A stretch of 64,000 nucleotides of DNA, taken from NCBI GenBank assembly GCA_902768975.1, contig CACXMZ010000004.1, positions 1-64,000 of the forward strand. Reading direction: 5' to 3'. This document shows positions 26,897-47,249 of this stretch, piece by piece. Numbering within the stretch: position 1 is the stretch's first letter; each line of letters begins with the position of its first letter. Under the pieces are notes generated by a model, which was given only the letters and a program-made list of their open reading frames with translations, searched no databases and had not been told where the DNA came from. The position numbers and the translations under genes were made by a program. This DNA comes from an uncultured Coriobacteriaceae bacterium (GTDB lineage Bacteria; Actinomycetota; Coriobacteriia; Coriobacteriales; Eggerthellaceae).

Positions 26897-26975
26897 AAAT
26901 TTAAAGACGGAATGCGAAAGTTACGCGTATAAGGTACGTAAAGTAACGGTCGTCGCAATGCATGAGGGAGCAGCT

Positions 26976-27203
26976 GTGGACGAGCAAAGGCTCGAACATA
27001 TTCTAGAAACGCATATGAAGCAGGACTTTTCGCACGGCACGGAAGCATTCCGTGACGAACTTCTTGCGCGTTGCCTAGAAGCTCTTTCCGCGAGGGGCGA
27101 CGAAGCGCGCAGTGAAAACGGCGAAGACATTGACGAAGAAGACCTCGAACTTCTTGCTGCGGCTGGCATTTATCTTCCGCCACTTTCTGAAACTACCAGC
27201 TAG
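26976..27203 (+). CDS. Candidate RiPP precursor peptide with AG-type cleavage site
   Basis: A 75-residue acidic protein. I do not recognise it as a named family. GTG 26976 is chosen because GAGGGAG lies five bases upstream; an ATG at 26958 would add six residues. Residues 1-64 look like a long leader: amphipathic 'EQRLEHILETHMKQDF', 'GTEAFRDELLARCLEAL', then an acidic stretch ending 'DIDEEDLELLAAAG'. That ending resembles the L-x-x-x-L-x-x-x-G-G/AG sites cut by C39 peptidases. The remaining core would be IYLPPLSETTS. It is the first gene before a sigma factor and a C39 exporter operon with a radical-SAM enzyme. The precursor role is inferred from context; it could also be a small regulator of the sigma factor. 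Confidence 0.6.
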   Translation: MDEQRLEHILETHMKQDFSHGTEAFRDELLARCLEALSARGDEARSENGEDIDEEDLELLAAAGIYLPPLSETTS

Positions 27204-27298
27204 ACTCGCATTTTTGCTAAACCAACAATTCTGCTTCAAGCAAAAAAACCCTACCGTTGAAGGCTATTGTTTTGTATCATGGAACAGTAGTTTTTTAC

Positions 27299-27859
27299 AT
27301 GTGGGAGCCTGTTACGAACGTACATCATAAACATCACGCCCATCTGGCAGCTTCAGCGGTCCATACTCGTTCGTCAGAGCAGGAATTTGAACGTCTTTAT
27401 TTGGACAGCTACGGCATGGTCTATGGCTATGTGCGTTCCCGTATGGGGAGCGACGCGGAAGCGGAAGACGTAGTGGCCGAAGCCTTCCTGAAGGCTGCGC
27501 GCGCCTTCGACTCCTTCGACCCTTCGCGCGCCAAATTCGGAACCTGGGTCACCACCATTGCAAAGAACTGCATGGCAAGTTACTACCGCAAGGAACGCCC
27601 TTCCTACGACCTGGAAGACGTGCCTGAATCGGTCGTAGCAATCGAAGGCGACCAGGACCATGTGGACGACGCCCTGCTCGTGCGCCAATTGCTTACCTGC
27701 CTTAATGAAGAAGAGCGTGAAATTATCGCCTTGAAATACCGTGATGGCCTGCGCAACGTAGACATCGCCGAAACTTTGAACATGAACGCATCGACCGTGT
27801 CGACCAAGCTGGCCGCTGCACTTACCAAGATGCGCAGTATGGTCCAGAAGGGTGCATAA
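27299..27859 (+). CDS. ECF-type RNA polymerase sigma factor
   Basis: About 186 residues. Region 2: 'EFERLYLDSYGMVYGYVRSR', 'DAEDVVAEAFLKAARAF', 'FGTWVTTIAKNCMASYYRK'. Region 4: 'CLNEEEREIIALKYRDGLRN', 'DIAETLNMNASTVSTKL'. Together these are the hallmarks of an extracytoplasmic-function sigma factor. The start is uncertain: ATG 27299 gives a His-rich N terminus ('VHHKHHAHL'); no clear Shine-Dalgarno precedes it, and a TTG at 27257 is possible. The stop is followed one base later by the HlyD-like ATG. It probably directs transcription of the export operon. No classical anti-sigma factor is next to it; a STAS protein lies at the operon's far end. Confidence 0.87.
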   Translation: MWEPVTNVHHKHHAHLAASAVHTRSSEQEFERLYLDSYGMVYGYVRSRMGSDAEAEDVVAEAFLKAARAFDSFDPSRAKFGTWVTTIAKNCMASYYRKERPSYDLEDVPESVVAIEGDQDHVDDALLVRQLLTCLNEEEREIIALKYRDGLRNVDIAETLNMNASTVSTKLAAALTKMRSMVQKGA

Positions 27860-27860
27860 A

Positions 27861-28370
27861 ATGGCAGAACCCGACAGCAGTATTTTTAATAAAAAGGCGA
27901 CGGAAAAACTCCGGAGCCCCGACGACCTCGACAAATACGTTCGCGTTACCAACCCCAGTGTGTGGTTGGTGCTCGTGGCATGCCTGGCCATGCTCATTGG
28001 CCTGCTTGCCTGGGGCATTTTTGGTGCCGTAACCACCAGCGTGGCCACAACGGGGACTTGCGTGGAAGGGAAGGCGGTTTGCTTCCTTTCTGCCGACGAC
28101 ACGGCTAAGGTAAGCGTTGGAAACGTTGCCATGGTTGGCGGTGAACGCATGACGGTTTCTTCGGTTTCTTCCGTTCCGCTTTCGATCAGCGAAGCTTCTT
28201 CGGTTCTGAAAAGCGACTACTTAGTGAGCACCCTTGTTCAAGAAGATTGGGCCTACCAAATTAATTTCGAAGGCGACACGTCTGAACTTTCAGAAGGGGT
28301 TCCCCTGGTTGTAAACATTACGACTGAACGCGTTGCACCCATCACGCTCATTCTGGGGGGCAACAGTTGA
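27861..28370 (+). CDS. Short HlyD-like secretion protein of the NHLM bacteriocin type
   Basis: 169 residues. The N terminus 'IFNKKATEKLRSPDDLDKYV' followed by 'RVTNPSVWLVLVACLAMLIG' is the conserved start of NHLM-type membrane-fusion proteins, with a single membrane helix (about 34-56) and a β-rich external part. Relatives are usually 250 residues or more and contain a coiled-coil and lipoyl-like domain; this protein has only a compact C-terminal domain. Start ATG 27861, seven bases after AGAAGGG, and one base after the sigma stop. It probably works with the two ABC transporters downstream. Confidence 0.78.
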   Translation: MAEPDSSIFNKKATEKLRSPDDLDKYVRVTNPSVWLVLVACLAMLIGLLAWGIFGAVTTSVATTGTCVEGKAVCFLSADDTAKVSVGNVAMVGGERMTVSSVSSVPLSISEASSVLKSDYLVSTLVQEDWAYQINFEGDTSELSEGVPLVVNITTERVAPITLILGGNS

Positions 28371-28427: not shown

Positions 28428-30587
28428 ATGCCTAGTGGTGTGGCAAAAGTTCCCCAGGTCATGCAAATGGAGGCGCTGGAATGTGGCGCCGCCTGCCTTA
28501 CCATGATACTGGCCTACTATGGGCGTTGGGTACCGCTTGAACAAGTGCGCGCCGACTGCGGTGTTTCGCGCGACGGCTCTAAGGCTTCGAATATATTGAA
28601 GGCGGCACGTAGCTATGGGCTTACCGCCAAAGGCATGACCTTTTCTGCAAACGCTATTCGCAAAAAGGCGAACTTCCCCTGCATTATTTTTTGGAACTTC
28701 AACCACTTTGTGGTTTTGGATGGCTTCAAGGGCAAGTATGCCTACTTAAACGACCCTGCGCGTGGGCAAATCCGCGTGACCATGGAAGAGTTTGAGCAAA
28801 GCTTTACGGGCGTCGCTCTTGTGTTTGAAAAAACCGAAGCCTTCGAAGAAGGGGGCGTCAAGCCCGACCCTATTGCATTTGCGCGTAAGCGCATGGAAGG
28901 CCTTGGTGGGCCCGTGGGTTTCGTCATGCTTTCGGCGGCCATCGTTTCCTTTGTGGCGATTTTAAACACGTCCCTCGGGCAGGTTTTCCTGGACCATATT
29001 CTTACGGGCGAAGACCCTGAATGGCTGCCACCCTTCTTGGCTATCATGCTCGTGCTTGCCCTTATAACGGGCGTGGTTTCAATTATGAACGCGGTCTATT
29101 TGGTGCGCATCCAGGGCAAGATTGCCGTGGTTTCGTCTTCGCGTTTCATGCGGCATTTGTTGCACCTGCCCATAGGTTTTTATTCCCAGCGCATGGTGGG
29201 CGACCTTCAGCAGCGCCAGTCTGCCAATGAAGTTATCGCCTTTTCATTGGTGGGGCAGCTGGCACCTGTGCTCATTAACATGGTCATGCTTGTACTGTAC
29301 TTGCTTATCATGCTGAACTACAGCGTGGTGCTTACGGTCGTGGGCCTGCTCACCGTGGTAGTCAATGCCTTCCTGGCGCGCTATATTTCGAAGAAGCGCG
29401 TGAATATTGCGCGTGCCGGTGCCGCCAATGCCGGCAAGCTCTATGCAACCACCATTGGCGGTATCGAAATGATAGACACCATCAAGGCAGCGGGTGCCGA
29501 AAATGGCTATTTTAGCCGCTGGGCGGGCTACCAGGCGTCGGTCAACGAAGCGCAGGCAAACACGACGACGCTGAACACCTACCTTGGCGCGCTGCCTGCT
29601 TTCCTCACGCAGCTTGCTAACATCCTTGTGCTTGTCTTGGGCATTTTCCTTATTGTTCAAGGGAACTTTACTCCGGGCGCCTTGCTGGCATTCACGGGCT
29701 TCCTCACCGCGTTCATGAACCCCATGAACCAGATGATCAACCTGGGTCAAACCATCCAAGAAATGCAGACGCAAATGGAACGCGTGGAAGACGTTATGCG
29801 CTACCCCGTGGACGTTCCCGAAGACCATGAAGATGCGGGCGACGTCGAAGACTTTGAAGGCGAAAAACTAAGCGGCCAGGTAGATTTGGAAAACATCACC
29901 TTTGGCTATTCACCACTGGAGCCGCCGCTTATCAAGGACTTCAGCCTTCACCTGGAACCCGGCCAGTGGGTTGCCCTGGTGGGTGGTTCCGGTTGCGGTA
30001 AGAGTACCATCGCCAAGCTGGTGAGCGGTTTGTATGAACCATGGGAAGGCGAAGTGAAGTTCGACGGCATTCCCATTAAAAAAATACCGCGTTCCGTTTT
30101 GCGCGGTTCGCTGGCGGTGGTCGACCAAGACATTGTTATTTTCGACGATACGGTTTCGAACAATGTCATGCTGTGGGACAAGTCCATTGAAGACTACGAA
30201 GTTATTCTTGCCTGCCGCGACGCGGGTATTCACGACGTTATAGCCCAGCGCGAAGGCGGTTATTCGAGTACCGTTTTGCCTGGTGGGCGCAACTTTAGTG
30301 GCGGGCAGCTCCAGCGTTTGGAAATCGCACGCGTCCTTGCCCAGGACCCGACGGTCATCATTTTGGACGAAGCCACGAGCGCCCTCGACGCCCAAACGGA
30401 AGCCGAAATCATTACGCGTATTCGCGACCGCGCCATTACCTGCATTGTGGTGGCGCATCGCCTTTCTACCATTCGCGACTGCGACGAAATTATCGTGCTC
30501 GAAGACGGCGAGGTTGTCGAACGCGGGACCCACGATGAACTGCTTAAAAAGAGTGGTGCATACGCCGAATTGGTGAGGAACGACTAG
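28428..30587 (+). CDS. Peptidase-containing ABC exporter (C39 peptidase/permease/ATPase)
   Basis: 719 residues. The N-terminal C39 peptidase has Cys in 'MEALECGAACLTMILAYYG', His in 'FWNFNHFVVLDGF' and Asp in 'YLNDPARG', so the triad is present. Six membrane helices span about 165-440. The ATPase has Walker A 'GGSGCGKST', signature 'NFSGGQLQRLEIARVL', Walker B 'VIILDEATSALD' and the H-loop 'VVAHRLSTI'. It cuts a leader after a GG/AG-type site and exports the core. It resembles the first subunit of NHLP/NHLM bacteriocin exporters. The next gene starts two bases after its stop. Confidence 0.93.
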   Translation: MPSGVAKVPQVMQMEALECGAACLTMILAYYGRWVPLEQVRADCGVSRDGSKASNILKAARSYGLTAKGMTFSANAIRKKANFPCIIFWNFNHFVVLDGFKGKYAYLNDPARGQIRVTMEEFEQSFTGVALVFEKTEAFEEGGVKPDPIAFARKRMEGLGGPVGFVMLSAAIVSFVAILNTSLGQVFLDHILTGEDPEWLPPFLAIMLVLALITGVVSIMNAVYLVRIQGKIAVVSSSRFMRHLLHLPIGFYSQRMVGDLQQRQSANEVIAFSLVGQLAPVLINMVMLVLYLLIMLNYSVVLTVVGLLTVVVNAFLARYISKKRVNIARAGAANAGKLYATTIGGIEMIDTIKAAGAENGYFSRWAGYQASVNEAQANTTTLNTYLGALPAFLTQLANILVLVLGIFLIVQGNFTPGALLAFTGFLTAFMNPMNQMINLGQTIQEMQTQMERVEDVMRYPVDVPEDHEDAGDVEDFEGEKLSGQVDLENITFGYSPLEPPLIKDFSLHLEPGQWVALVGGSGCGKSTIAKLVSGLYEPWEGEVKFDGIPIKKIPRSVLRGSLAVVDQDIVIFDDTVSNNVMLWDKSIEDYEVILACRDAGIHDVIAQREGGYSSTVLPGGRNFSGGQLQRLEIARVLAQDPTVIILDEATSALDAQTEAEIITRIRDRAITCIVVAHRLSTIRDCDEIIVLEDGEVVERGTHDELLKKSGAYAELVRND

Positions 30588-30588
30588 C

Positions 30589-32778
30589 TTGGGTTGGATG
30601 GAATCACAGATCGAAACGCGGGAACGCTTAGATGCGCAGCTGACGGAGCGCGCCTACGCTGAACTTGCGGCAAGTGTGTACGACTCGAATCGTGCCATTG
30701 CGTTTACGGTCGACGACATCGAACAGGCCGACGGCGCCATTAAGACCTGCCTCAAGCACTGCCGTGTTGAAGCGGGCGTGGTGCCAGCGGGCGACCTAAG
30801 CCTTGAAGACCGCATAGACTGCCTGTGCCGCCCTTCGGGAACCATGCATCGCAATGTGACGCTCGACAAGGGTTGGCATTTGCGCGCGTTCGGCGCCATG
30901 CTGGGCAAGCTTGAAAGCGGGGAATCCATTGCGCTTTTGCCGTGGGGTGTGCGCGGTTATTACTACCTGGAACCCGGCACGGGGCGCAAGGTTAAGGTGA
31001 CCGACGAAGTCGCCAAGCAAATTAGCGAAGAAGCCGTTTTGTTCTATCGGCCCCTTCCCGCGAAACCCTTGGGCATTACCGACTTGGTGCGTTTCATCTT
31101 TAGCATTTTCGACCGCAACGACTACTTGCTTGTGTTTGCCGCTGCCATAGCCATGATGGTTATTGGTTTGGTACCGGCGTGGGCCCACCAGATAGCCTTC
31201 GGTACGGTGGTTCCCAGCGGGCATGTGGGCCTGGTCCTTCCCGTAGGTATTTTGCTGCTTGGCGTGGCCATTTCGACCGCGCTCATTGGTGCAACACGCG
31301 CCCTCATTATGAGCCGCATTACCATTAAGCTTGACGTCATAACCCAGGCAGCTACTTTTTCGCGTTTGCTAGCCCTGCCTTCAAGCTTCTTTAAGCAATA
31401 TTCTTCGGGTAATTTGGGCAACCGCGTTGCCAGCGTTGCCATGCTTGCCCAGGAACTGGCTTCGGTTTTGTTGGGCAGCGGCCTCACGGCTTTGCTTTCT
31501 TTAATATACGTGGTCCAGATTGGCATTTTCGCACCTGCGCTGGCAGTTCCCGCCTTGGTGATCATGCTGGTACAGGGCGGCTTGACGGTGGCAGCAGCCA
31601 TGCTTATAAGGCGTTACGAACAGGCAACCATGAAGGCCAACGCGGCCCTTTCGGGTACCGTGACGGCCCTTCTTAATGGCATTCAGAAGATCAAGCTTGC
31701 TGGTGCAGAAGACCGCGCTTTTGCCCGTTGGGCCCGCGGCTATTCCGAATATGCCCGCACCGCCTATAACCGCCCAGCGCTTCTGCTTGCTCTTCCGGCA
31801 ATCGTGGCCTTGGTGGCTTTGCTTGGCAATATTGTTTTGTACTACTTGGCGGGAACGACGAATGTTTCGGTGGCAAATTACATGGCCTTTACCGCTGCGT
31901 ATGCCCAGGCTTCGGGCGCTATTGCGGCACTCGCGGCTATCGCTGGGCAGGTAGCGCAGATCCAGCCCATGCTCGAAATGATAGCGCCCATCCTGGAAGC
32001 AACGCCGGAAACGGCAGAAGACAAACCCGTGGTAGCTTCGCTTTCGGGTGCCATTGAAGTTTCCGGTGTGTGGTTTAGCTACGGGGAAAACAGCCCCGCC
32101 GTAGTGAAGGACCTTTCCTTTAAAGTGAAGCCAGGTGAATACGTGGCCTTGGTGGGCAAGAGCGGTTGTGGCAAGTCCACCATCATGCGCCTGCTTCTTG
32201 GTTTTGAAACCCCCGACCGCGGTACCATTTTCTATGGCCCGCACGACGTGCAAAAGGTCGACCTGCGCAGCCTGCGCCAGCATATTGGCGTGGTTATGCA
32301 AGACGGCAAACTCTTCATGGGCGACATTGCGAGCAACATTACTATTTCTTCGCCCCAGGCGACGGTCGACGACGCGTGGGAAGCCGCCGAAATTGCTGGC
32401 ATTGCGGAAGACATTCGCAAGATGCCCATGGGCATGCACACCTTTGTGACCGAAGGCGGCGGCGGTGTTTCGGGTGGTCAGCGGCAACGCCTGATGATAG
32501 CGCGCGCCGTGTGCGGCAAACGCAAGATTCTTATGCTTGACGAAGCCACGAGCGCCCTCGACAATAAGACGCAAAAGCATGTGTCGGATTCGCTCGAAGC
32601 CCTTCAGTGCACGCGCGTGGTAGTGGCGCATCGCCTGAGCACCGTGCGTCATTGCGACCGTATTATGGTGGTGGACGAAGGGCGCATCGTTGAACAGGGG
32701 ACGTACGACGAGCTCATTGCGAAGAACGGCATCTTTGCTGAACTGGTAGAACGCCAGCGCCTGGACAAAGACGCCTAG
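30589..32778 (+). CDS. Second ABC exporter subunit (NHLM-type permease/ATPase)
   Basis: 729 residues. The N-terminal ~165 residues lack a C39 catalytic triad and look like the degenerate domain of NHLM second subunits. About six membrane helices (180-450) are followed by an ATPase with Walker A 'GKSGCGKST', signature 'GVSGGQRQRLMIARAV', Walker B 'ILMLDEATSALD' and H-loop 'VVAHRLSTV'. It probably pairs with the upstream peptidase-containing subunit as a heterodimer. The start is TTG 30589: GAGGAA is eight bases upstream. ATG 30598 is the alternative. It is tightly coupled to the preceding gene. Confidence 0.9.
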   Translation: MGWMESQIETRERLDAQLTERAYAELAASVYDSNRAIAFTVDDIEQADGAIKTCLKHCRVEAGVVPAGDLSLEDRIDCLCRPSGTMHRNVTLDKGWHLRAFGAMLGKLESGESIALLPWGVRGYYYLEPGTGRKVKVTDEVAKQISEEAVLFYRPLPAKPLGITDLVRFIFSIFDRNDYLLVFAAAIAMMVIGLVPAWAHQIAFGTVVPSGHVGLVLPVGILLLGVAISTALIGATRALIMSRITIKLDVITQAATFSRLLALPSSFFKQYSSGNLGNRVASVAMLAQELASVLLGSGLTALLSLIYVVQIGIFAPALAVPALVIMLVQGGLTVAAAMLIRRYEQATMKANAALSGTVTALLNGIQKIKLAGAEDRAFARWARGYSEYARTAYNRPALLLALPAIVALVALLGNIVLYYLAGTTNVSVANYMAFTAAYAQASGAIAALAAIAGQVAQIQPMLEMIAPILEATPETAEDKPVVASLSGAIEVSGVWFSYGENSPAVVKDLSFKVKPGEYVALVGKSGCGKSTIMRLLLGFETPDRGTIFYGPHDVQKVDLRSLRQHIGVVMQDGKLFMGDIASNITISSPQATVDDAWEAAEIAGIAEDIRKMPMGMHTFVTEGGGGVSGGQRQRLMIARAVCGKRKILMLDEATSALDNKTQKHVSDSLEALQCTRVVVAHRLSTVRHCDRIMVVDEGRIVEQGTYDELIAKNGIFAELVERQRLDKDA

Positions 32779-32828: not shown

Positions 32829-33131
32829 ATGGAAATCAGGACAACGGTTGAAGGGACTCAGGCAACACTTGAAGCTGAAGGAAAGCTAACGGTTAATACG
32901 TCACCAGACCTGACCGCTGCCGTTGAAGCACTCCCTGAAGAAGTGTGCGACGTGAATATCGACCTTTCGAAACTGGACTATATCGCGTCTGCCGGCTTGC
33001 GTGTTTTTGTGGCAACAGAAAAACTTGCGGCTGCGCGCGGTGGTGCACTCCATTTGCTGCATCCTGTCGACGAAGTTATGGAAGTGCTTGAAATGACGGG
33101 GCTTACCGAAGTCTTCGACATCGTTCGCTAG
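32829..33131 (+). CDS. STAS-domain anti-sigma factor antagonist
   Basis: 100 residues forming one STAS domain. The phosphorylatable Ser lies in 'KLDYIASAGLRVFVATEKL', and the N terminus 'VEGTQATLEAEGKLTVNTSP' matches SpoIIAA/RsbV-like proteins. Such proteins control sigma factors by binding a kinase-type anti-sigma factor. No kinase is in the window. Its place in the exporter operon suggests a regulatory link to the ECF sigma factor at 27299, although the two classes are not usually partners. Confidence 0.85.
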   Translation: MEIRTTVEGTQATLEAEGKLTVNTSPDLTAAVEALPEEVCDVNIDLSKLDYIASAGLRVFVATEKLAAARGGALHLLHPVDEVMEVLEMTGLTEVFDIVR

Positions 33132-33169: not shown

Positions 33170-33730
33170 ATGAACTACGAAGAACTTCTTGCTAACGACG
33201 CAACTTTAACCGACGAACTTATTTTGGTTGACGGGCTCGACCGCGCCATAGGTGCAGCCAGCAAGTGGCAGACTCATGTGGACGGCGCCTTGCACCGCGC
33301 GTTTTCGGTAGTGCTTGTGCGCGAAGGGGAAGAAGGCCCCGAACTTCTGGTGGCTAAACGTTCTTTGCTCAAATATCATTCGGGTGGCCTGTGGGCGAAT
33401 TCCTGCTGTTCGCACCCGCGTGTGGGCGAAGAAATCATTGAAGCTGCCTACCGTCGCGTGCCCGAAGAACTGGGTTGCACGGCGGCTGAACTGCATGAAA
33501 TTGCCGCCTTTGTATATCGCGCCGAATTCGAAAATGGCTTATGCGAATACGAATATGACCATGTGGTTGTGGGGCAGTGCGCCAGTGAATTGGAGCTGAA
33601 CCCAAACGAAGTGAGCGAAGCGCGTTGGATGAGTTTCGACGCCCTGGCGGAAGAGCTCGCGCAAGAGCCAAAGCATTTTGCCGCTTGGGCCCCAACGGTG
33701 TTCACCTTAACCATGAATCATTTACGTTAA
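33170..33730 (+). CDS. idi: Isopentenyl-diphosphate delta-isomerase, type 1
   Basis: 186 residues of the Nudix-like type 1 IDI. The active-site Cys lies in 'LWANSCCSHPRVGEEI'; 'AFVYRAEFENGLCEYEYDHV' carries the metal-binding Glu residues, and 'HRAFSVVLV' opens the Nudix fold. It interconverts IPP and DMAPP. The host already makes both through the MEP pathway (dxr, ispD, ispF and ispG are in this window), so Idi is not strictly needed. It sits between the STAS gene and the radical-SAM gene (16-base gap), so it may supply DMAPP for a prenylated product, or be incidental. Confidence 0.92.
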   Translation: MNYEELLANDATLTDELILVDGLDRAIGAASKWQTHVDGALHRAFSVVLVREGEEGPELLVAKRSLLKYHSGGLWANSCCSHPRVGEEIIEAAYRRVPEELGCTAAELHEIAAFVYRAEFENGLCEYEYDHVVVGQCASELELNPNEVSEARWMSFDALAEELAQEPKHFAAWAPTVFTLTMNHLR

Positions 33731-33746
33731 CACGGACGGAGGAAGC

Positions 33747-35099
33747 ATGACTACTGCAGGCGAAGCGGGCTGGCATGCATCGCGTTACAATTTGCAGGCT
33801 CCAATGCCCGACGGAAAGTACGTGGCTATTGCAAATATCTTCAAGGGCAATTGCGCCCTTTATACGCCCATCGAACTCTATTTACTTTCCGTTGTTGAAG
33901 AGCTCGACGAAAATCACCCTATAATCGAGCGCTTTGCGAAGCGCGGGGTAATTTGCAATTTCGACGAACGCGCCGCCTTGCAAACCATGTCGCGCGCTGC
34001 TTGCGCGGCTGTGCACGGAATAGGTTTGACCATCTGCCCGACCATGGGTTGCAACTTCGACTGTCCGTACTGTTTTGAAGACCATGGCCGTGGGAAAATG
34101 TCGCCCGAAGTCCAAGACGACGTTGTGGCGCTTGCCGAACGCATGCTGGAAGCTTCCAAAGCCACCGACCTGAGTGTGACTTGGTTTGGGGGCGAACCCT
34201 TGCTTGCCCCCGACGTTATTGAGTCGCTTACGCAGCGCCTGATGGCCCTGGTTGAAGAACGCGGGGGAACGTATTCTGCGGGCGTTATTACGAATGGCTA
34301 CTTGATGGACCAGGCCATGGTAGACATGCTCGAACGCTGCAAGGTCGAAACGTGCCAGGTTACCATCGACGGCCTTGAAGACACCCATAATGCCACGCGC
34401 GTTTTGGCAGGGGGTGGCCCCACCTTCGAACGCATCGTGGCCAATCTGCGCAATTGCAAGATTCCTTTTAAGGTGAACATTAGGCACAACGTTCATGAAA
34501 ATAATCGCGCCGAAATGGAACCCCTTAAGGAATTCATCGACCAGCTGGCAGAAGAGTCGGGCAATACCCTCCAGTATTACCCTGCGCCTGTTTCAGGAAG
34601 CGAAACAGCCGACGAGCGTGGCAGGCAGGTCAACTTGCTCTGTGAAAGCAACGAAAGCGAAGTGAGCATTACCCAGGAGTCTCAGCGTTTCCATAAGGGG
34701 CGCGGGCATTACTGTGGCGCCCATACCCTGTGGAGTCTGGGCATTGACGACGCAGGCAACTTGCAAAAATGCTGGGAAAGCGTGGACAAGGCCGACCATT
34801 CTTTCGGCACGGCACACGACTGGGACCCTGCCGACCCGTTTGAGACTGCGGCGCATGCCGACAAGCTCACTAGCTGGCTGAATACAGCGGGTGCCCTGGA
34901 CGACGAAGAATGCCAGGAATGCATATGGCTGCCCACGTGCGTAGGCGGCTGCCCGTACAAGCGCTTGTACGTAGAACGCAAATGTATTGCTTTCAAGGAT
35001 AATCCTGAAGAATACGTGCTTGCCCTTGCTGCCCGCATCGGTGAAGAAAAATCAGAGCCTGAAAGCGTCGAGGAAACTAAGGACGATTCAGACGAATAG
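33747..35099 (+). CDS. Radical SAM/SPASM peptide-modifying enzyme
   Basis: 450 residues. The 4Fe-4S radical-SAM motif is Cys102-x3-Cys106-x2-Cys109 ('GCNFDCPYCFED'), followed by 'SVTWFGGEPLLAPDVIESL', 'VITNGYLMDQ' and 'CQVTIDGLEDTHNATR'. The SPASM region carries further cysteines at 'GHYCGAHTLW', 'LQKCWESV', 'DEECQECIWLPTC' and 'VGGCPYKR', enough for auxiliary clusters. The N terminus ('SRYNLQAPMPDGKYVAIANI') matches peptide maturases that read a leader. It would install a carbon-based crosslink or related change in a peptide. The chain ends with an acidic tail. It lies in the operon of the C39 exporter. Confidence 0.9.
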   Translation: MTTAGEAGWHASRYNLQAPMPDGKYVAIANIFKGNCALYTPIELYLLSVVEELDENHPIIERFAKRGVICNFDERAALQTMSRAACAAVHGIGLTICPTMGCNFDCPYCFEDHGRGKMSPEVQDDVVALAERMLEASKATDLSVTWFGGEPLLAPDVIESLTQRLMALVEERGGTYSAGVITNGYLMDQAMVDMLERCKVETCQVTIDGLEDTHNATRVLAGGGPTFERIVANLRNCKIPFKVNIRHNVHENNRAEMEPLKEFIDQLAEESGNTLQYYPAPVSGSETADERGRQVNLLCESNESEVSITQESQRFHKGRGHYCGAHTLWSLGIDDAGNLQKCWESVDKADHSFGTAHDWDPADPFETAAHADKLTSWLNTAGALDDEECQECIWLPTCVGGCPYKRLYVERKCIAFKDNPEEYVLALAARIGEEKSEPESVEETKDDSDE

Positions 35100-40912: not shown

Positions 40913-41003
40913 AAATTTTTGGTACCAGACGGGCCATTTTTGACGCGCCATGATACCCCATGCAAACGAATATAAATTGGTAGGTTATTCGGGGGAGAAC
41001 TGC

Positions 41004-44000
41004 ATGAACACAATGCAATACGGTAGGAATTCTGTCCAGGTTTCAAAGCGCTGGCTGGCAGTGCTTTTGGCATGCGTTTTAGCGCTTGCTGCTGCATTCG
41101 CCTGGAGCACGCACGAGACGCTTGCATACGCTGCAGCCGTAGGCCAAAAGAACAAGCAAGCTTGCGACGACTGCGATAGGGTGGTGAAAGAAACGCCACC
41201 AGAGGGATATACGGGCGTTGCGAGTACGCAGGTAGGAAATAAATACAGCGTATATTCAGGCGGCAATTCGTATTCAAAGGCTAATAAACTTGAGCTCGAT
41301 ACCGATACAACAGACTTTGCCAATCCGCTTCCCTATGGCGATGTGTATGTGGATGCAAATAAGCTGAATTGGGACAACCCCGAAGGCTTCATTATTGACA
41401 TCAAGGATGACCGTTTCCAGTGGGTGAGCATAGGTGATACTCCGCTCAAGGACGCAAAGGGCAATACATCGACTAACGACCCAATGGGGGTAGATGGTGC
41501 TGGGCCTCTTGTTTACACGGGTAATAGTCCATTTAGAGGAATTTGCTACGTGGGCCCACTGAAGAGCTACCATGACGATATTAAAGCTGCTGCAAGCGGT
41601 AGTGGATTCACCAACGATATCACACCACAAGGCGGTGCTGAGTACCTGTACCGCATTACCTATTTGAACGCGGTGACTCTTCCCGACGGAACCAAGGGAA
41701 ACCTGGTTCTTACCATGAAGAAGGTCCAGATTGAAACCTCTGTAACCGTTGATGCGGACCATCTCTACACGCCAGCAGGGGCAAACTATTCGTATGCCAA
41801 TGCCTTCATGAAGGTTCAAGGGGAAAATCAGCTTTCAAATGACACGGCCTACAACGTTACAGACGCCAATGGGAATAGAGTTAACCAACAAGAAACTCAG
41901 ATCATGACGGCGGCTGAAGCTGCTGCTATCCGAGCGGCGATAAATAAAAAGTATCCCAACTTGATACCAGAAGATTGGGAACAGGCTAAAAGTATTCGTA
42001 ATGCAACAGGAGATATTCTTGATCTTGATATCGAAGTCACTGATGTAGAGGGCAATGCGGTAAACGGCACTATTTCCTACGCTGCCCACGACATGGACTT
42101 CGAAAGCGCTCAGAATACATGGGGGCGCCCCGTAGGTAGCGAATATGCTGAGGCGATGACCATAGTTAGCGGGTCCCAGTCCTATGCGTTGGTACCGAAC
42201 TATAATCATCTAAATGCCACTACGCGTGATACGGGATGGTTGCCGGTAGGTCCTGGGCAGTCCCAACTTGATAGAGCCTTGAAGATCGAGAAAACTTCTG
42301 GCGCTACAGGGAGCCATGCAGACGGCATTCGTTTCGCGTCGCCATTCCTCCTAAATTATAGAGATGCAAATGGAAAATTTGATGATGTCATATTCAGCAA
42401 TACGGCGGTTACTACATTCCAAGGCGATGGTTCAGCTGCGAATAAATATGAACTTGTCAATAAAAACGGAGGAAACAGTATCAATAGCCTTTCGAAGAAG
42501 CAGCTCTATGCCAAGCTGAAGGCGAAAGGGCATACGGTTTCTAGGTGGCAGGATGTTACAGCGGAAATGGCATGGGCAACCCTTGGAAATTATTCCTGGA
42601 AGACCTATCGAAACGATGATGATGCTAGCTTTGACAGTGGCTTTGCCGTACTCCTAGATTCGAGAAAGAGCCAAATTCAGTGGTCAGGGTCCAGAGTGAT
42701 GGGTGCAAATGTAAATACCACGCTGTTTGACCCAACCCTGTTCACCTATATTGAGCAGACTCACGGTACTGGTGGTGGCATTTATTTCGAGACCTACGAT
42801 ATTACAGATGAGTGCAAGGTAACACGTCGTGAAGGTGTCTCTACCATGGGTAGGGGCGTGGAAGCTACCGTTACTGCGGTGCCTGAAGACGGGTACCGCG
42901 TAAAGACGCTCATGGTTGGCGGGGAAGGCCTTTCCAATCCGAAAACATACGATGTATCGAAGCTGCCGTTCTTGGATGATGGTACTGGTCACTTCTACTA
43001 TTTCGATTCCGCAAATGACCTTCGCATAGAAGATAACCAGGACGGTACTTATGACGTATGTTTCCTTGAAATACAGGACCCGCGCCACGTGCACGTAGAT
43101 TTCACGGCCGACTTCCATTTCTACAAAGTCTGGAAGGGCGAGAAAGATCCTACTACCCTCAACATGACGGCTACTCCGTATGCCTTTGTATTCAGAGATG
43201 TAACTATCGAGGGCACGAAGTATACGATTAGCGACAAAGGAAACAAATTTACTGATCCTAGCGGCAATGCCTACACGCTGGAAAACAATGCATTTTCAGT
43301 GGGTGAGCCACCGAACATGACTACCTACTATCTGGAAGGAAATAGCTTGGTTACGTATACCGTGGACCAAGCCACAGGAAAGAGGACGAAGGACAAAGAA
43401 TACCCAATTCGTCTCGACTATGTTCAGAATGGTGACCCGGTAGAGTTTACGGTAACGAAAGCAGATGCAGACAAAGCTTCTGAAACCCATGTAACTAAGG
43501 GCGAAGAAGACGGGTATACGACGTGGGAAATCACCTATCCTGCTGAAGGATATACGACAGCATCAGGGGAAGTATGGCCCGCTCTTGCTATTGAATCCAC
43601 GCCTCCTGCGCACAATATCAACCACGTAGAAAGAAACTACTGGTTTGTGACAGAAGAAGCTCCGGGCTGGTCCTTGGCCTACTACGACAACAGCAAGGCA
43701 GAGGCTCCAGGCAAGATTGATGCCGCCACCGTCCGAGAAGAAGTCTATAAAGAAGGAGACAGTGGAGACCTGACTGCTTGGGCCCATGCGTCCACCAAGG
43801 ACTATGCTCAGGCTGAAGCGGTTATTAGGAGCGCTGCGGATAACGACCATGCCTATATGTCAGTCTTTAACAGCGACGATGGCGGCTACTCATGGGGTGG
43901 AAAGATTGTTAACGTTCCTGCCGTTGTCGTGAATGCCGAAAAGACTTGGAAAGACTTCTCTAATGCATATAAAACCAGGCAGGACGTATGGTTCCATATC

Positions 44001-47000
44001 GACGCACAGCTTGAAGGTGAACCTAAGATCGAGGACTTCCTTCCACCGCAAAAACTGGCAGGAACTGCAACTGACGGAAAAGATAATGCCGACGGGGACA
44101 AGAACAGCAAGTTCACCTTAACCTGGGGTAACAAGAAGGCCTACGGAGACGGCTATCTGAAGGATTATAAGAAAATTGATTACAGTAAGGTTAAGGTTGT
44201 AGGAAAGGCCGCAGATATTCCAAGAACAGACTCAGAGGGCAATCCCCTGTACTACCAGCAGGATGAAAAAGATAGCCATAAATACCTGCCCATGAAGGTT
44301 GGAGGCTTTGATGACGACGGAAAGCCAGTATATGTTTCCGATCCTGATGGAGTGACATATTACGTTAACGAGCTGGAAGATAAGAATGGGGCAGATAAGA
44401 AGTATACGTTCACAATTCGCGAGACCGATGCTGCCGGTAATGAACTCGATAAAGCTGATCCGACAAAATACCTCTATGGCTATAAATCTGACGTTGGCAA
44501 GGTAGCAAAGGATGGCGAACAGGCTACGCTCGACGGCGTAAAGGTTGACAGCTATACCGGCAAGGTGAAGAACACCCTTGAAACCGTAGACTTCACAGTT
44601 AAAAAGGTATGGGTCGACGGGAACAACGCGGACAGCAAACGCCCGGCGGATGGCGCCGTAACATATCTCGTCAAGAAGAAGTCGGGGGACAGTGAAGCTA
44701 CGTCGCTTGAATCTTTACCTGTGAAAGAATCTGCTACGCAGGGTACCGCTGATGTAACACCTGATTATAAGAATGGAAAGATTACGGTAAAGACAGACAA
44801 TGGCGACACCGTCAAATTCTCCAAGCTTCCTAAGTATGACACCACGGGCAAAGAAATTGTGTACAGCGTTGAAGAAACCGCCATCGCCGGATACCGTACG
44901 GAAATCACAGGCGATATGAGCGCTGGCTATACCGTAACCAACACTCAGAAGACCGAAGTTTATGTTGAAAAAGAATGGGACGACGCGAACAACCAGGACG
45001 GCGTGAGGCCAACTGCGGTTGAATTTGAGCTTCTGAAGGGCGGCACTGCAACCGGAACAACGGTTGAGCTGAGCGAATCCACCGTTTGGAAGGGCAAGTT
45101 TGCTGATCTGGATAAATACGACGGTAATACCGAGATTGTCTACAGCATTCAGGAAGTGCCATTTGATGCTCCAAATACAGACATTGAATACACCGCTAGC
45201 GCAACAACCGGTACTGGTACAAAGGATGATCCATTTAAGATTACGAATTCCAGAACTCCTGAAACGATAGAAATAAGGGCAACCAAGGTATGGGACGACG
45301 AAACGGATAATCCTGGCAACAAGCACGATATCCGATTCGATGCAGTGTTCGCGCTTTATGGCGACAGCCAGCTGGTTACTAAGCTTGGCGATGGCCAATC
45401 TAACCCAGCAACGGTAGCTACGGTAGAACCGCTTCACACGGATGTCATGACAGCTACCTGGACGGTAGATAAATATCGTAACGGCGGAGTTGAAATTGTG
45501 TACAACGTTACTGAAGACAAGCCGGTAACAAGCCCGTATGAAGCAAGAATTACAGGTGATGCGCAAACCGGCTTTACGGTTACCAATGTATATCCGCCTG
45601 TAAAAGAGGAAATAACGGTAACACGTACCATTACCTATACCTATCTTACAGAAGATGGACAAACCGCGTCTGCAACAGTTACCCAGACCGTAACACTAAA
45701 GAGGACTCCTAAGTCAATCGATAAAGATAATGCAGTGGTCGAATGGACTGATTGGGAAATTGTTAGCGGAAAACAGGACGAGGTCACATCGCCTAGTATA
45801 AATGGATGGGAGACCGACGAGCCAGTTGTTCCTGAATGGGTAGTCGAATTTGACAGCAATGGCAACCCGATGAACGCCTATGAAAACGTTATCTACACGC
45901 CACTTCCACCGGTAGGTGAGCCTGACGAGACATGGGGTGCGCCGGGACAACAGCAGACAGGTGCGCCAACGTTTACGACGAGCACCCCGACCACGCCCAA
46001 TGGGGGCGAGAACATAATTGTTGATTATGTTCTTCTGGATGCAGAGGGCAACCCTGCAACGACCGTAGAAGTTCCCGAGGGTACCTATGTGCTTAACGAC
46101 GACGGCACGATTACCTTCACGCCGAACGACCCCACGTTTGTTGGCGATCCAACGCCAGTTAACGTAAGGGGCACCGACAGCAACGGCAAGTCTGCTGAAA
46201 CGTATTATCAGCCGCATATAGTTGACAACACCAAGACCGTCAAACGTACTATCACATACGAGTATGAAGACGGTACGCCAGTTACGGACGACAAGGGTAA
46301 CCCGCTTACCAAAGAGCAGACGGTCACATTCACGGGAGGCATTGTTGATCCCGATACGGGAGAGGTTACCTTCCCAGATGATGCCCAAGATACTATGCCG
46401 CAGGTAGACAGCGACGAAATCGCTGGCTACACGCCAGACAGACCAAATGTTCCTGCTGTAACCGTTAAACCAACGGATGATGACATCTTTGAAAGGGTCG
46501 TATATAAGAAGAATGCGAGCCCGTCGTACAACATCAACTACGACCCCAACGGTGGTACGGGCAGCATGGCGGACGACAACTATTCGGCCGGCGACCCAAC
46601 CATGAAGGACAAGAAGAATACCTTCACCAGGAAGGGCTACCACTATGTTGGGTTCCTGGGCTTTTTGACCAACCCTGAAACGGGCAAGGAAACCCCCATC
46701 GTGGACGAAAACGGCGACCCCATTATTTTCACCGACGTGGATGACATGAAGAAGTACTTCGAAGGCATGCCCGACGGCACGAGCATTCGTTTGCAAGCGC
46801 AGTGGGAGCCCGACAAGTACACCATTAAGTACGACGCCAACGGTGGAAGCGGCACGATGGATCCGCAATACATTGGTGGCGACGCTGGTACTGCCGTTTC
46901 AAAGACCAACGAATTCACGCGCGAAGGCTACACCTTTAAGGGCTTTAAGGCACAGCTGCCCGACGGTTCGTTCCTGACCGACGAAAACGGCAATGAACTC

Positions 47001-47249
47001 ATCTTCACCAGTGCTAAGGAATTCTTTGACTACCTGGCAGAATTCGGTGATGGCGCCGAAATCACCCTCATTGCCCAGTGGGAACCTGTGGCTGGCCCCA
47101 ACAAGACGGCGTCGCCCACGAAGGGTTCGCCTGAAAAAGCTACGGCCAAGACGGCCGACGGCGCTCCGCTGCTGCCCATTGCTCTGTTTGCACTCCTGGG
47201 CCTGGTGGGTGCAGGTGTTTCCCTCCGCCTTGGGAAGCATGGTGCATAG
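41004..47249 (+). CDS. Giant cell-surface protein with Cna-B, MucBP-like, CshA-like and InlB-type repeats
   Basis: 2081 residues. Signal peptide at 1-43 ('WLAVLLACVLALAAAFA', cleavage near 'LAYA'). A long N-terminal region of unknown fold (about 45-1160) follows. Three Cna-B-like modules ('FTVKKVWVDGNNADSKRP', 'VYVEKEWDDANNQDGVRP', 'IRATKVWDDETDNPG') come next, then MucBP-like repeats ('VTRTITYTYLTEDGQ', 'VKRTITYEYEDGTP'), a CshA-like segment ('NDDGTITFTPNDPTFVGDP') and two InlB/Flg_new repeats ('INYDPNGGTGSM', 'IKYDANGGSGTM'). The C terminus has 'AKTADGAPL', a hydrophobic helix and a short basic tail, but no LPxTG. It is probably a wall-anchored adhesin. The Shine-Dalgarno is GGGGGAG. The middle has weaker host codon bias than the ends. 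Confidence 0.85.
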   Translation: MNTMQYGRNSVQVSKRWLAVLLACVLALAAAFAWSTHETLAYAAAVGQKNKQACDDCDRVVKETPPEGYTGVASTQVGNKYSVYSGGNSYSKANKLELDTDTTDFANPLPYGDVYVDANKLNWDNPEGFIIDIKDDRFQWVSIGDTPLKDAKGNTSTNDPMGVDGAGPLVYTGNSPFRGICYVGPLKSYHDDIKAAASGSGFTNDITPQGGAEYLYRITYLNAVTLPDGTKGNLVLTMKKVQIETSVTVDADHLYTPAGANYSYANAFMKVQGENQLSNDTAYNVTDANGNRVNQQETQIMTAAEAAAIRAAINKKYPNLIPEDWEQAKSIRNATGDILDLDIEVTDVEGNAVNGTISYAAHDMDFESAQNTWGRPVGSEYAEAMTIVSGSQSYALVPNYNHLNATTRDTGWLPVGPGQSQLDRALKIEKTSGATGSHADGIRFASPFLLNYRDANGKFDDVIFSNTAVTTFQGDGSAANKYELVNKNGGNSINSLSKKQLYAKLKAKGHTVSRWQDVTAEMAWATLGNYSWKTYRNDDDASFDSGFAVLLDSRKSQIQWSGSRVMGANVNTTLFDPTLFTYIEQTHGTGGGIYFETYDITDECKVTRREGVSTMGRGVEATVTAVPEDGYRVKTLMVGGEGLSNPKTYDVSKLPFLDDGTGHFYYFDSANDLRIEDNQDGTYDVCFLEIQDPRHVHVDFTADFHFYKVWKGEKDPTTLNMTATPYAFVFRDVTIEGTKYTISDKGNKFTDPSGNAYTLENNAFSVGEPPNMTTYYLEGNSLVTYTVDQATGKRTKDKEYPIRLDYVQNGDPVEFTVTKADADKASETHVTKGEEDGYTTWEITYPAEGYTTASGEVWPALAIESTPPAHNINHVERNYWFVTEEAPGWSLAYYDNSKAEAPGKIDAATVREEVYKEGDSGDLTAWAHASTKDYAQAEAVIRSAADNDHAYMSVFNSDDGGYSWGGKIVNVPAVVVNAEKTWKDFSNAYKTRQDVWFHIDAQLEGEPKIEDFLPPQKLAGTATDGKDNADGDKNSKFTLTWGNKKAYGDGYLKDYKKIDYSKVKVVGKAADIPRTDSEGNPLYYQQDEKDSHKYLPMKVGGFDDDGKPVYVSDPDGVTYYVNELEDKNGADKKYTFTIRETDAAGNELDKADPTKYLYGYKSDVGKVAKDGEQATLDGVKVDSYTGKVKNTLETVDFTVKKVWVDGNNADSKRPADGAVTYLVKKKSGDSEATSLESLPVKESATQGTADVTPDYKNGKITVKTDNGDTVKFSKLPKYDTTGKEIVYSVEETAIAGYRTEITGDMSAGYTVTNTQKTEVYVEKEWDDANNQDGVRPTAVEFELLKGGTATGTTVELSESTVWKGKFADLDKYDGNTEIVYSIQEVPFDAPNTDIEYTASATTGTGTKDDPFKITNSRTPETIEIRATKVWDDETDNPGNKHDIRFDAVFALYGDSQLVTKLGDGQSNPATVATVEPLHTDVMTATWTVDKYRNGGVEIVYNVTEDKPVTSPYEARITGDAQTGFTVTNVYPPVKEEITVTRTITYTYLTEDGQTASATVTQTVTLKRTPKSIDKDNAVVEWTDWEIVSGKQDEVTSPSINGWETDEPVVPEWVVEFDSNGNPMNAYENVIYTPLPPVGEPDETWGAPGQQQTGAPTFTTSTPTTPNGGENIIVDYVLLDAEGNPATTVEVPEGTYVLNDDGTITFTPNDPTFVGDPTPVNVRGTDSNGKSAETYYQPHIVDNTKTVKRTITYEYEDGTPVTDDKGNPLTKEQTVTFTGGIVDPDTGEVTFPDDAQDTMPQVDSDEIAGYTPDRPNVPAVTVKPTDDDIFERVVYKKNASPSYNINYDPNGGTGSMADDNYSAGDPTMKDKKNTFTRKGYHYVGFLGFLTNPETGKETPIVDENGDPIIFTDVDDMKKYFEGMPDGTSIRLQAQWEPDKYTIKYDANGGSGTMDPQYIGGDAGTAVSKTNEFTREGYTFKGFKAQLPDGSFLTDENGNELIFTSAKEFFDYLAEFGDGAEITLIAQWEPVAGPNKTASPTKGSPEKATAKTADGAPLLPIALFALLGLVGAGVSLRLGKHGA

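Follow-up and report, generated by a model that had tools for sequence, protein, structure and literature searches.

The small gene considered here lies at positions 26976–27203 of the window, the 64-kb stretch of DNA that was analysed as a whole. It is the first of a series of genes in the order small protein, ECF sigma factor, HlyD-like stub, first NHLM-type ABC subunit with a C39 peptidase domain, second ABC subunit, STAS-domain protein, IDI-like Nudix protein, and radical-SAM/SPASM enzyme, after which a VanX-like gene lies on the opposite strand. The features are as follows.

26904–26932, forward strand: ECF-type promoter AAGACGG-N15-CGTATAA, its −35 and −10 boxes a fixed distance apart, with 43 nt between the promoter and the GTG start codon (EM motif).
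26976–27203, forward strand: small leader-like protein of 75 aa (translation, alignment A3, dN/dS, AF2 helices, C39 register).
27284–27859, forward strand: ECF sigma factor, which accompanies the small protein more constantly than any other neighbour (TIGR02937, E 3.1e-28; PF04542, E 2e-19).
27852–28370, forward strand: HlyD-like membrane stub, matching only the N-terminal 70 positions of TIGR03794.
28428–30587, forward strand: NHLM-type exporter subunit with C39 peptidase (PCAT; TIGR03796, 945 bits, cut-off 853).
30589–32778, forward strand: second NHLM-type ABC exporter subunit (TIGR03797, 701 bits, cut-off 709).
32829–33131, forward strand: STAS-domain protein of the anti-sigma antagonist type (TIGR00377, E 4.8e-17).
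33170–33730, forward strand: IDI-like Nudix protein (NF002995, above cut-off).
33747–35099, forward strand: radical-SAM/SPASM peptide maturase (TIGR04463/Clo7bot-like, below cut-offs).

The first-pass annotation took the gene following the small protein to be the exporter and overlooked the sigma factor, the most constant neighbour; the exporter is in fact third, behind the sigma gene and the HlyD-like stub. The sigma factor has region 2 and region 4 domains (TIGR02937, 98.5 bits with a cut-off of 42.9; PF04542 and PF08281). The stub, 172 aa in length, covers positions 1–70 of the 421 of TIGR03794 with 47.9 bits against a cut-off of 156.2 and is not a full-length subunit; related loci number 48. 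The best solved relative of the exporter C39 domain is LahT (6mpz, E 1.9e-64), whose catalytic triad is Cys27/His101/Asp117 (PMC6363468), and the segments ECGAA, NFNHFVVL, and NDPA align with the catalytic segments of LahT, bearing out the intact C39 triad noted at first reading. The STAS gene follows the second ABC subunit in many related loci and is a frequent member of the operon. Where the small protein and the sigma factor occur, STAS and SpoIIE-type phosphatase-like proteins are often found behind the exporter (L033, L035, and 32829–33131 in the window), suggesting a partner-switching input. Two more NHLM-type exporters are encoded in G000: the one at L069 (C5:20000-34000) is flanked by genes for a STAS protein and for a SpoIIE-type phosphatase-like protein, and the one at L070 (C7:132000-146000) has a second radical-SAM enzyme (32% identity) and a Nif11 precursor in its vicinity. 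An isopentenyl-diphosphate isomerase-like Nudix gene stands between the exporter and the radical-SAM gene, and elsewhere in the window an ORF of 2099 aa occupies 40950–47249.

The small ORF, described at first reading as ending in IYLPPLSETTS, translates to a protein of 75 aa, VDEQRLEHILETHMKQDFSHGTEAFRDELLARCLEALSARGDEARSENGEDIDEEDLELLAAAGIYLPPLSETTS, with the C-terminal end DIDEEDLELLAAAG-IYLPPLSETTS. Its GTG start codon at 26976 is immediately preceded by a Shine-Dalgarno-like GAGGGAG, and the in-frame codons 5′ of this GTG vary among the nearest relatives. Since homologues exist and dN/dS is low, the ORF is beyond chance: it is a real gene under purifying selection. A helical N-terminal block (residues 1–34) is followed by a variable linker (35–50), a C39-docking helix (51–63), G64, and a variable tail (65–75). 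Relative to the two closest relatives, and over few sites, dN/dS is ∼0.05 for residues 1–34, ∼1 for residues 35–50, and 0.5–0.7 for the tail; for residues 51–64, likewise few sites, it is near 0 relative to L088, and dS is saturated relative to L089 (identical in sequence to G284). An AF2 model built from 24 sequences places helices at 3–15, 22–44, and 54–63 with a disordered tail, at low confidence (pTM 0.30), and no transmembrane segment is found in the small protein.

Direct searching followed by profile searching of Coriobacteriia genomes and a scan of public contigs yielded 38 distinct family members; public genome contigs were scanned once, with the HlyD stub as anchor, and contribute part of this set. 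The nearest genome among those searched encodes a homologue 75% identical to the small protein. The named loci belong to MAGs of Eggerthellaceae, Coriobacteriaceae, and Atopobiaceae, mainly from ruminant and deer gut; most genomes are MAGs, and contig ends cut some loci. The small protein has no match in Pfam or NCBIfam, and comparison of 24 aligned members with library families gave no convincing match, with nothing significant in Pfam or the PDB. A search of the open-access literature found no paper on this family, which by these comparisons is an undescribed one of the Coriobacteriales. In alignment A3 the N-terminal block and an acidic helix that ends in AAAG are conserved, whereas the linker between them and the tail vary.

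The comparison of leader and tail proposed with the original annotation comes out as expected for a precursor-like protein: residues 1–34 and 51–64 are conserved, the tail varies from 8 to 29 aa, and AAAG or SAAG is retained across the family. On these grounds the C-terminal helix is likely a C39-docking leader end, and the pattern of a conserved leader with a variable core that typifies double-glycine peptides is seen in both the alignment and dN/dS. Substrates of LahT and PCAT1 carry hydrophobic residues at −12, −7, and (in LahT) −4, and usually Ala at −3 (PMC6363468, PMC6959990). The spacing of I52, L57, and L60 equals −12/−7/−4, which places A61 at −3, A62 at −2, A63 at −1, and G64 at P1′. 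In this register the three docking positions are hydrophobic in all 38 family members, and P2-P1 is Ala-Ala in all 38, whereas the known C39 pairs at −2/−1 are Gly-Gly, GA, or GS (PMC10885120) and Gly-Gly is found in all 20 Nif11-type precursors of the same genome set. It follows that the previously proposed cleavage at Ala-Gly was one residue off and that the double-glycine feature is lacking, although the docking hydrophobics are present. The motif given at that time as LxxLxxxAG is correct in describing a leucine-spaced leader end but is really LxxLxxAG (L57-xx-L60-AA-AG), the canonical C39 form being LxxLxGG. The C39 cleft is described as very narrow at the cleavage site, which would explain the requirement for Gly-Gly (PMC6959990); on Ala at −2 in C39 substrates, the literature yielded only the statements on GG/GA/GS usage and on the narrow cleft.

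Of the 38 family genes, 32 have a sigma gene within 1 kb, 27 of them on the same strand; the remaining six have none at this distance, and two of the 38 have none in the locus sequence covered. Of 48 exporter loci, 22 contain both genes, 1 contains only the sigma gene, 0 contain only the small-protein gene, and 25 contain neither (Fisher p 8e-13, uncorrected for shared ancestry); at L113–L115, three of these 22 loci, the closest sigma gene is on the opposite strand at a distance of ∼3 kb. A PCAT gene is found within 8 kb in 22 of the 38 family loci, and at least 10 family loci have a sigma gene with no adjoining exporter. The only other clear ECF sigma gene of the genome is adjoined 3′ by a gene for an anti-sigma-like membrane protein, whereas the window sigma gene has none. 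By eye, a helix with the pattern S..EA..R.L had hinted that the N-terminal block is homologous to anti-sigma N-termini, but this is unsupported by hhalign, which assigns a probability of 1.5% in comparison with such N-termini from the same clade.

Unsupervised pair counting followed by EM in the regions 5′ of family genes gave the motif RRGAYRRA-N13-GCGTATAA with a fixed gap. Scores of at least 8 are reached by 26 of the 38 upstream regions, on which the motif was trained, and by 0.5% of shuffled regions; the site at 26904–26932 is the top match in the 64-kb window (17.06, against 9.58 for the second), and for more distant pairs of small protein and sigma factor the motif is different or not found. 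Exact sites number 34 in the 12 genomes having the family: seven in G000 and 27 in the other 11, of which 10 have at least one. None occurs in 9 genomes in which profile searching found no member and whose total sequence is similar to that of the 11; with the pattern reversed as a control, the 11 genomes give 6 sites and the 9 give 1. By eye, the first ORFs behind these 27 sites are 6 family members, 10 Nif11-like precursors, 2 radical-SAM enzymes, 3 MCFRPS proteins, 1 IDI-like protein, and 5 others. The seven exact sites found genome-wide in G000, in sequence outside the motif training, precede the small-protein gene, three xGG-leader precursors, the MCFRPS protein of ∼80 aa, a membrane protein of 151 aa, and a protein of 451 aa, and among the sites with one mismatch are some in front of further Nif11 precursors, at C1:19227, C1:19546, C2:122038, C2:124167, C2:154761, and C7:133668. 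The promoter also precedes the radical-SAM orthologue in G337, a more distant homologue of it in G275, and the orthologue of the IDI-like Nudix gene in G363 (L205).

Several genes behind promoter copies may be recorded separately. The ∼80-aa protein containing MCFRPS, which is zinc-ribbon-like, lies directly behind the promoter in three genomes (L170, L202, L207, L211; G000 C7:135346, G302, and G275). The 451-aa protein (L168, G000 C6:262718), behind an exact copy, resembles by eye a condensation-type acyltransferase. About a dozen Nif11-like or xGG-leader precursors are dispersed in G000, many with Cys-rich cores and several behind the sigma promoter (for example L164, L165, L167, L171, L172, L175–L178, and L185).

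Position, co-conservation, and the pattern of presence and absence make the window sigma factor, by inference, the one that recognises this promoter. Because the same promoter stands before dispersed Nif11 precursors and some radical-SAM maturase genes, the sigma factor is likely a master switch of a RiPP regulon whose products would be exported by the NHLM/C39 system. The best reading of the small-protein gene is therefore as the first cistron of an apparently autoregulated ECF-sigma operon that would drive this dispersed regulon. The same search of the open-access literature found no paper in which an ECF sigma factor is connected with a Nif11/NHLM RiPP regulon. The regulon itself is a firmer result than either of the two leading readings of the small protein that follow.

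The reading that we tentatively favour is that the small protein is a regulator of the sigma factor that docks on the C39 exporter and is encoded by the first gene of the regulon operon. The N-terminal helical block would engage the sigma factor, and the C-terminal helix would occupy the C39 groove of the exporter in the manner of a precursor leader, with Ala-Ala in place of Gly-Gly at P2-P1 resulting in slow cleavage or none. Sigma activity, and hence precursor synthesis, would be coupled to free export capacity, and the tail would be what is left over, under light constraint. This reading is favoured because residues 1–34 are constrained without a constant modification enzyme, because the gene is paired with the sigma gene and not the exporter, and because both glycines are uniformly lost. 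The absence of an anti-sigma-like neighbour at the window sigma gene points the same way. Against it, a target of the sigma factor would equally be expected as the promoter-proximal gene next to the sigma gene; the negative hhalign comparison, the six family genes with no sigma gene within 1 kb, the missing motif at more distant pairs, and a tail that is not fully neutral also count against it. A more specific version, in which the protein is a substrate mimic whose N-terminal domain holds the sigma factor while the docking helix lacking glycines senses free C39 exporter, so that export capacity switches precursor synthesis, is a rather doubtful conjecture.

The two foremost readings are close, and it is nearly as likely that C39 genuinely cleaves the small protein, which would make it the sigma-driven precursor of a short, unmodified, secreted peptide of pheromone or bacteriocin type. 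Cleavage would follow AAA or AAAG, and the tail would be the product, leaving the cell through the NHLM transporter. The conserved leader and variable tail, the acidic helical leader end with −12/−7/−4/−3 residues like those of LahT and PCAT1 substrates, the occurrence of PCAT near 22 of the 38 genes, and the promoter held in common with real precursor genes are all consistent with secretion. The tail elements LPP and ET are retained in three close relatives, so the tail is partly conserved and not fully neutral. However, the uniform Ala-Ala at P2-P1 is at odds with both the known pairs and the very narrow cleft; the tails are acidic and have no residue class in common across the family; it is the sigma gene, and not the exporter, that the gene accompanies; and the strongest constraint falls on residues 1–34, which are dispensable for C39, 13 residues being sufficient for LahT (PMC6363468).

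An unlikely role for the small protein is that of a leader-like exporter chaperone or adaptor, encoded in the same operon but unconnected with sigma activity. A docking helix with an uncleavable-looking site and the presence of the exporter in the same operon at many loci would suit such a function, whereas the 25 exporter loci without a small protein and the family loci that have a sigma gene and no adjoining exporter argue against it.

The original proposal that the 11-residue core with its Tyr, Pro, Ser, and Thr residues is crosslinked at Tyr or Ser by the adjoining radical-SAM enzyme is very improbable: although the enzyme belongs to the operon in the window and in L088 and a contig-end fragment of it (79% identical) lies beside the small-protein gene in G302 (L129), it is within 9 kb in only 2 of 38 family loci, and the tails near related enzymes (IYLPPLSETTS in the window, IILPPLDETTR in L088, DIEARLMNGEYDERRTKK in L129) have no common pattern. 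The nearest relative, L088, shares the operon and has an enzyme 84% identical, and its tail contains neither Tyr nor Ser; the constant maturase neighbour and conserved core residues expected of a ranthipeptide-like radical-SAM substrate are not seen. In G284 a tail of the same type (LILPPDLETPC) is kept with the radical-SAM orthologue elsewhere in the genome behind its own promoter copy. Some orthologues occur in genomes in which no family member was detected (G136, G130), and those of G300, G193, and G302 (there a second copy) adjoin Nif11 precursors with Cys-rich cores (L155, L156, L161). Because the orthologues adjoin such precursors and rarely the small protein, the likely substrates of the enzyme are the Cys-rich Nif11 precursors, of which G000 has about a dozen candidates.

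Among known systems, the small protein has the exporter family in common with the Nif11/NHLP leader precursors (Haft et al., 2010, PMC2887384; TIGR03793/03798 and TIGR03794/03796/03797), as well as an acidic end of the leader carrying L(−12), L(−7), V/L(−4), A/S(−3), and often G(−15), and, in the window genome, the promoter. It differs in having an unrelated N-terminal half, Ala-Ala for Gly-Gly, a link to a sigma factor, no constant modification enzyme, and a tail that is not Cys-rich; membership in Nif11 (TIGR03798) or NHLP was considered and rejected, since no model matches and hhalign aligns only 20 columns of the leader end. The word "sigma" is absent from Haft et al. (2010). The docking residues match those of the double-glycine peptides of LahT150, PCAT1, and ComA, and the window C39 domain is nearest to LahT, but P2-P1 is AA rather than GG, GA, or GS. 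Like the genes of ECF sigma/anti-sigma pairs, the small gene is constantly paired with an ECF sigma gene and lies behind a seemingly autoregulatory promoter; unlike them, it is located 5′ of the sigma gene and encodes a protein without a transmembrane segment or detectable homology to anti-sigma N-termini that ends in a putative exporter-docking helix. FlgM is an anti-sigma factor that, by being exported, links the expression of flagellar genes to assembly. The logic proposed here would similarly tie sigma activity to export capacity, but the exporter at the small-protein locus is of the ABC/C39 type rather than flagellar, and FlgM serves as a working analogy with no claim of homology.

RiPP gene clusters are usually viewed as locally regulated. 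Across this group of gut Coriobacteriales, one dedicated ECF sigma factor appears to govern dispersed Nif11 precursors, maturases, and the exporter, and its recognisable promoter provides an easy way of locating their orphan RiPP genes by sequence. Through the decoy-like C39 site of the small protein, the idea of feedback from peptide export to RiPP transcription could be put to a concrete test.
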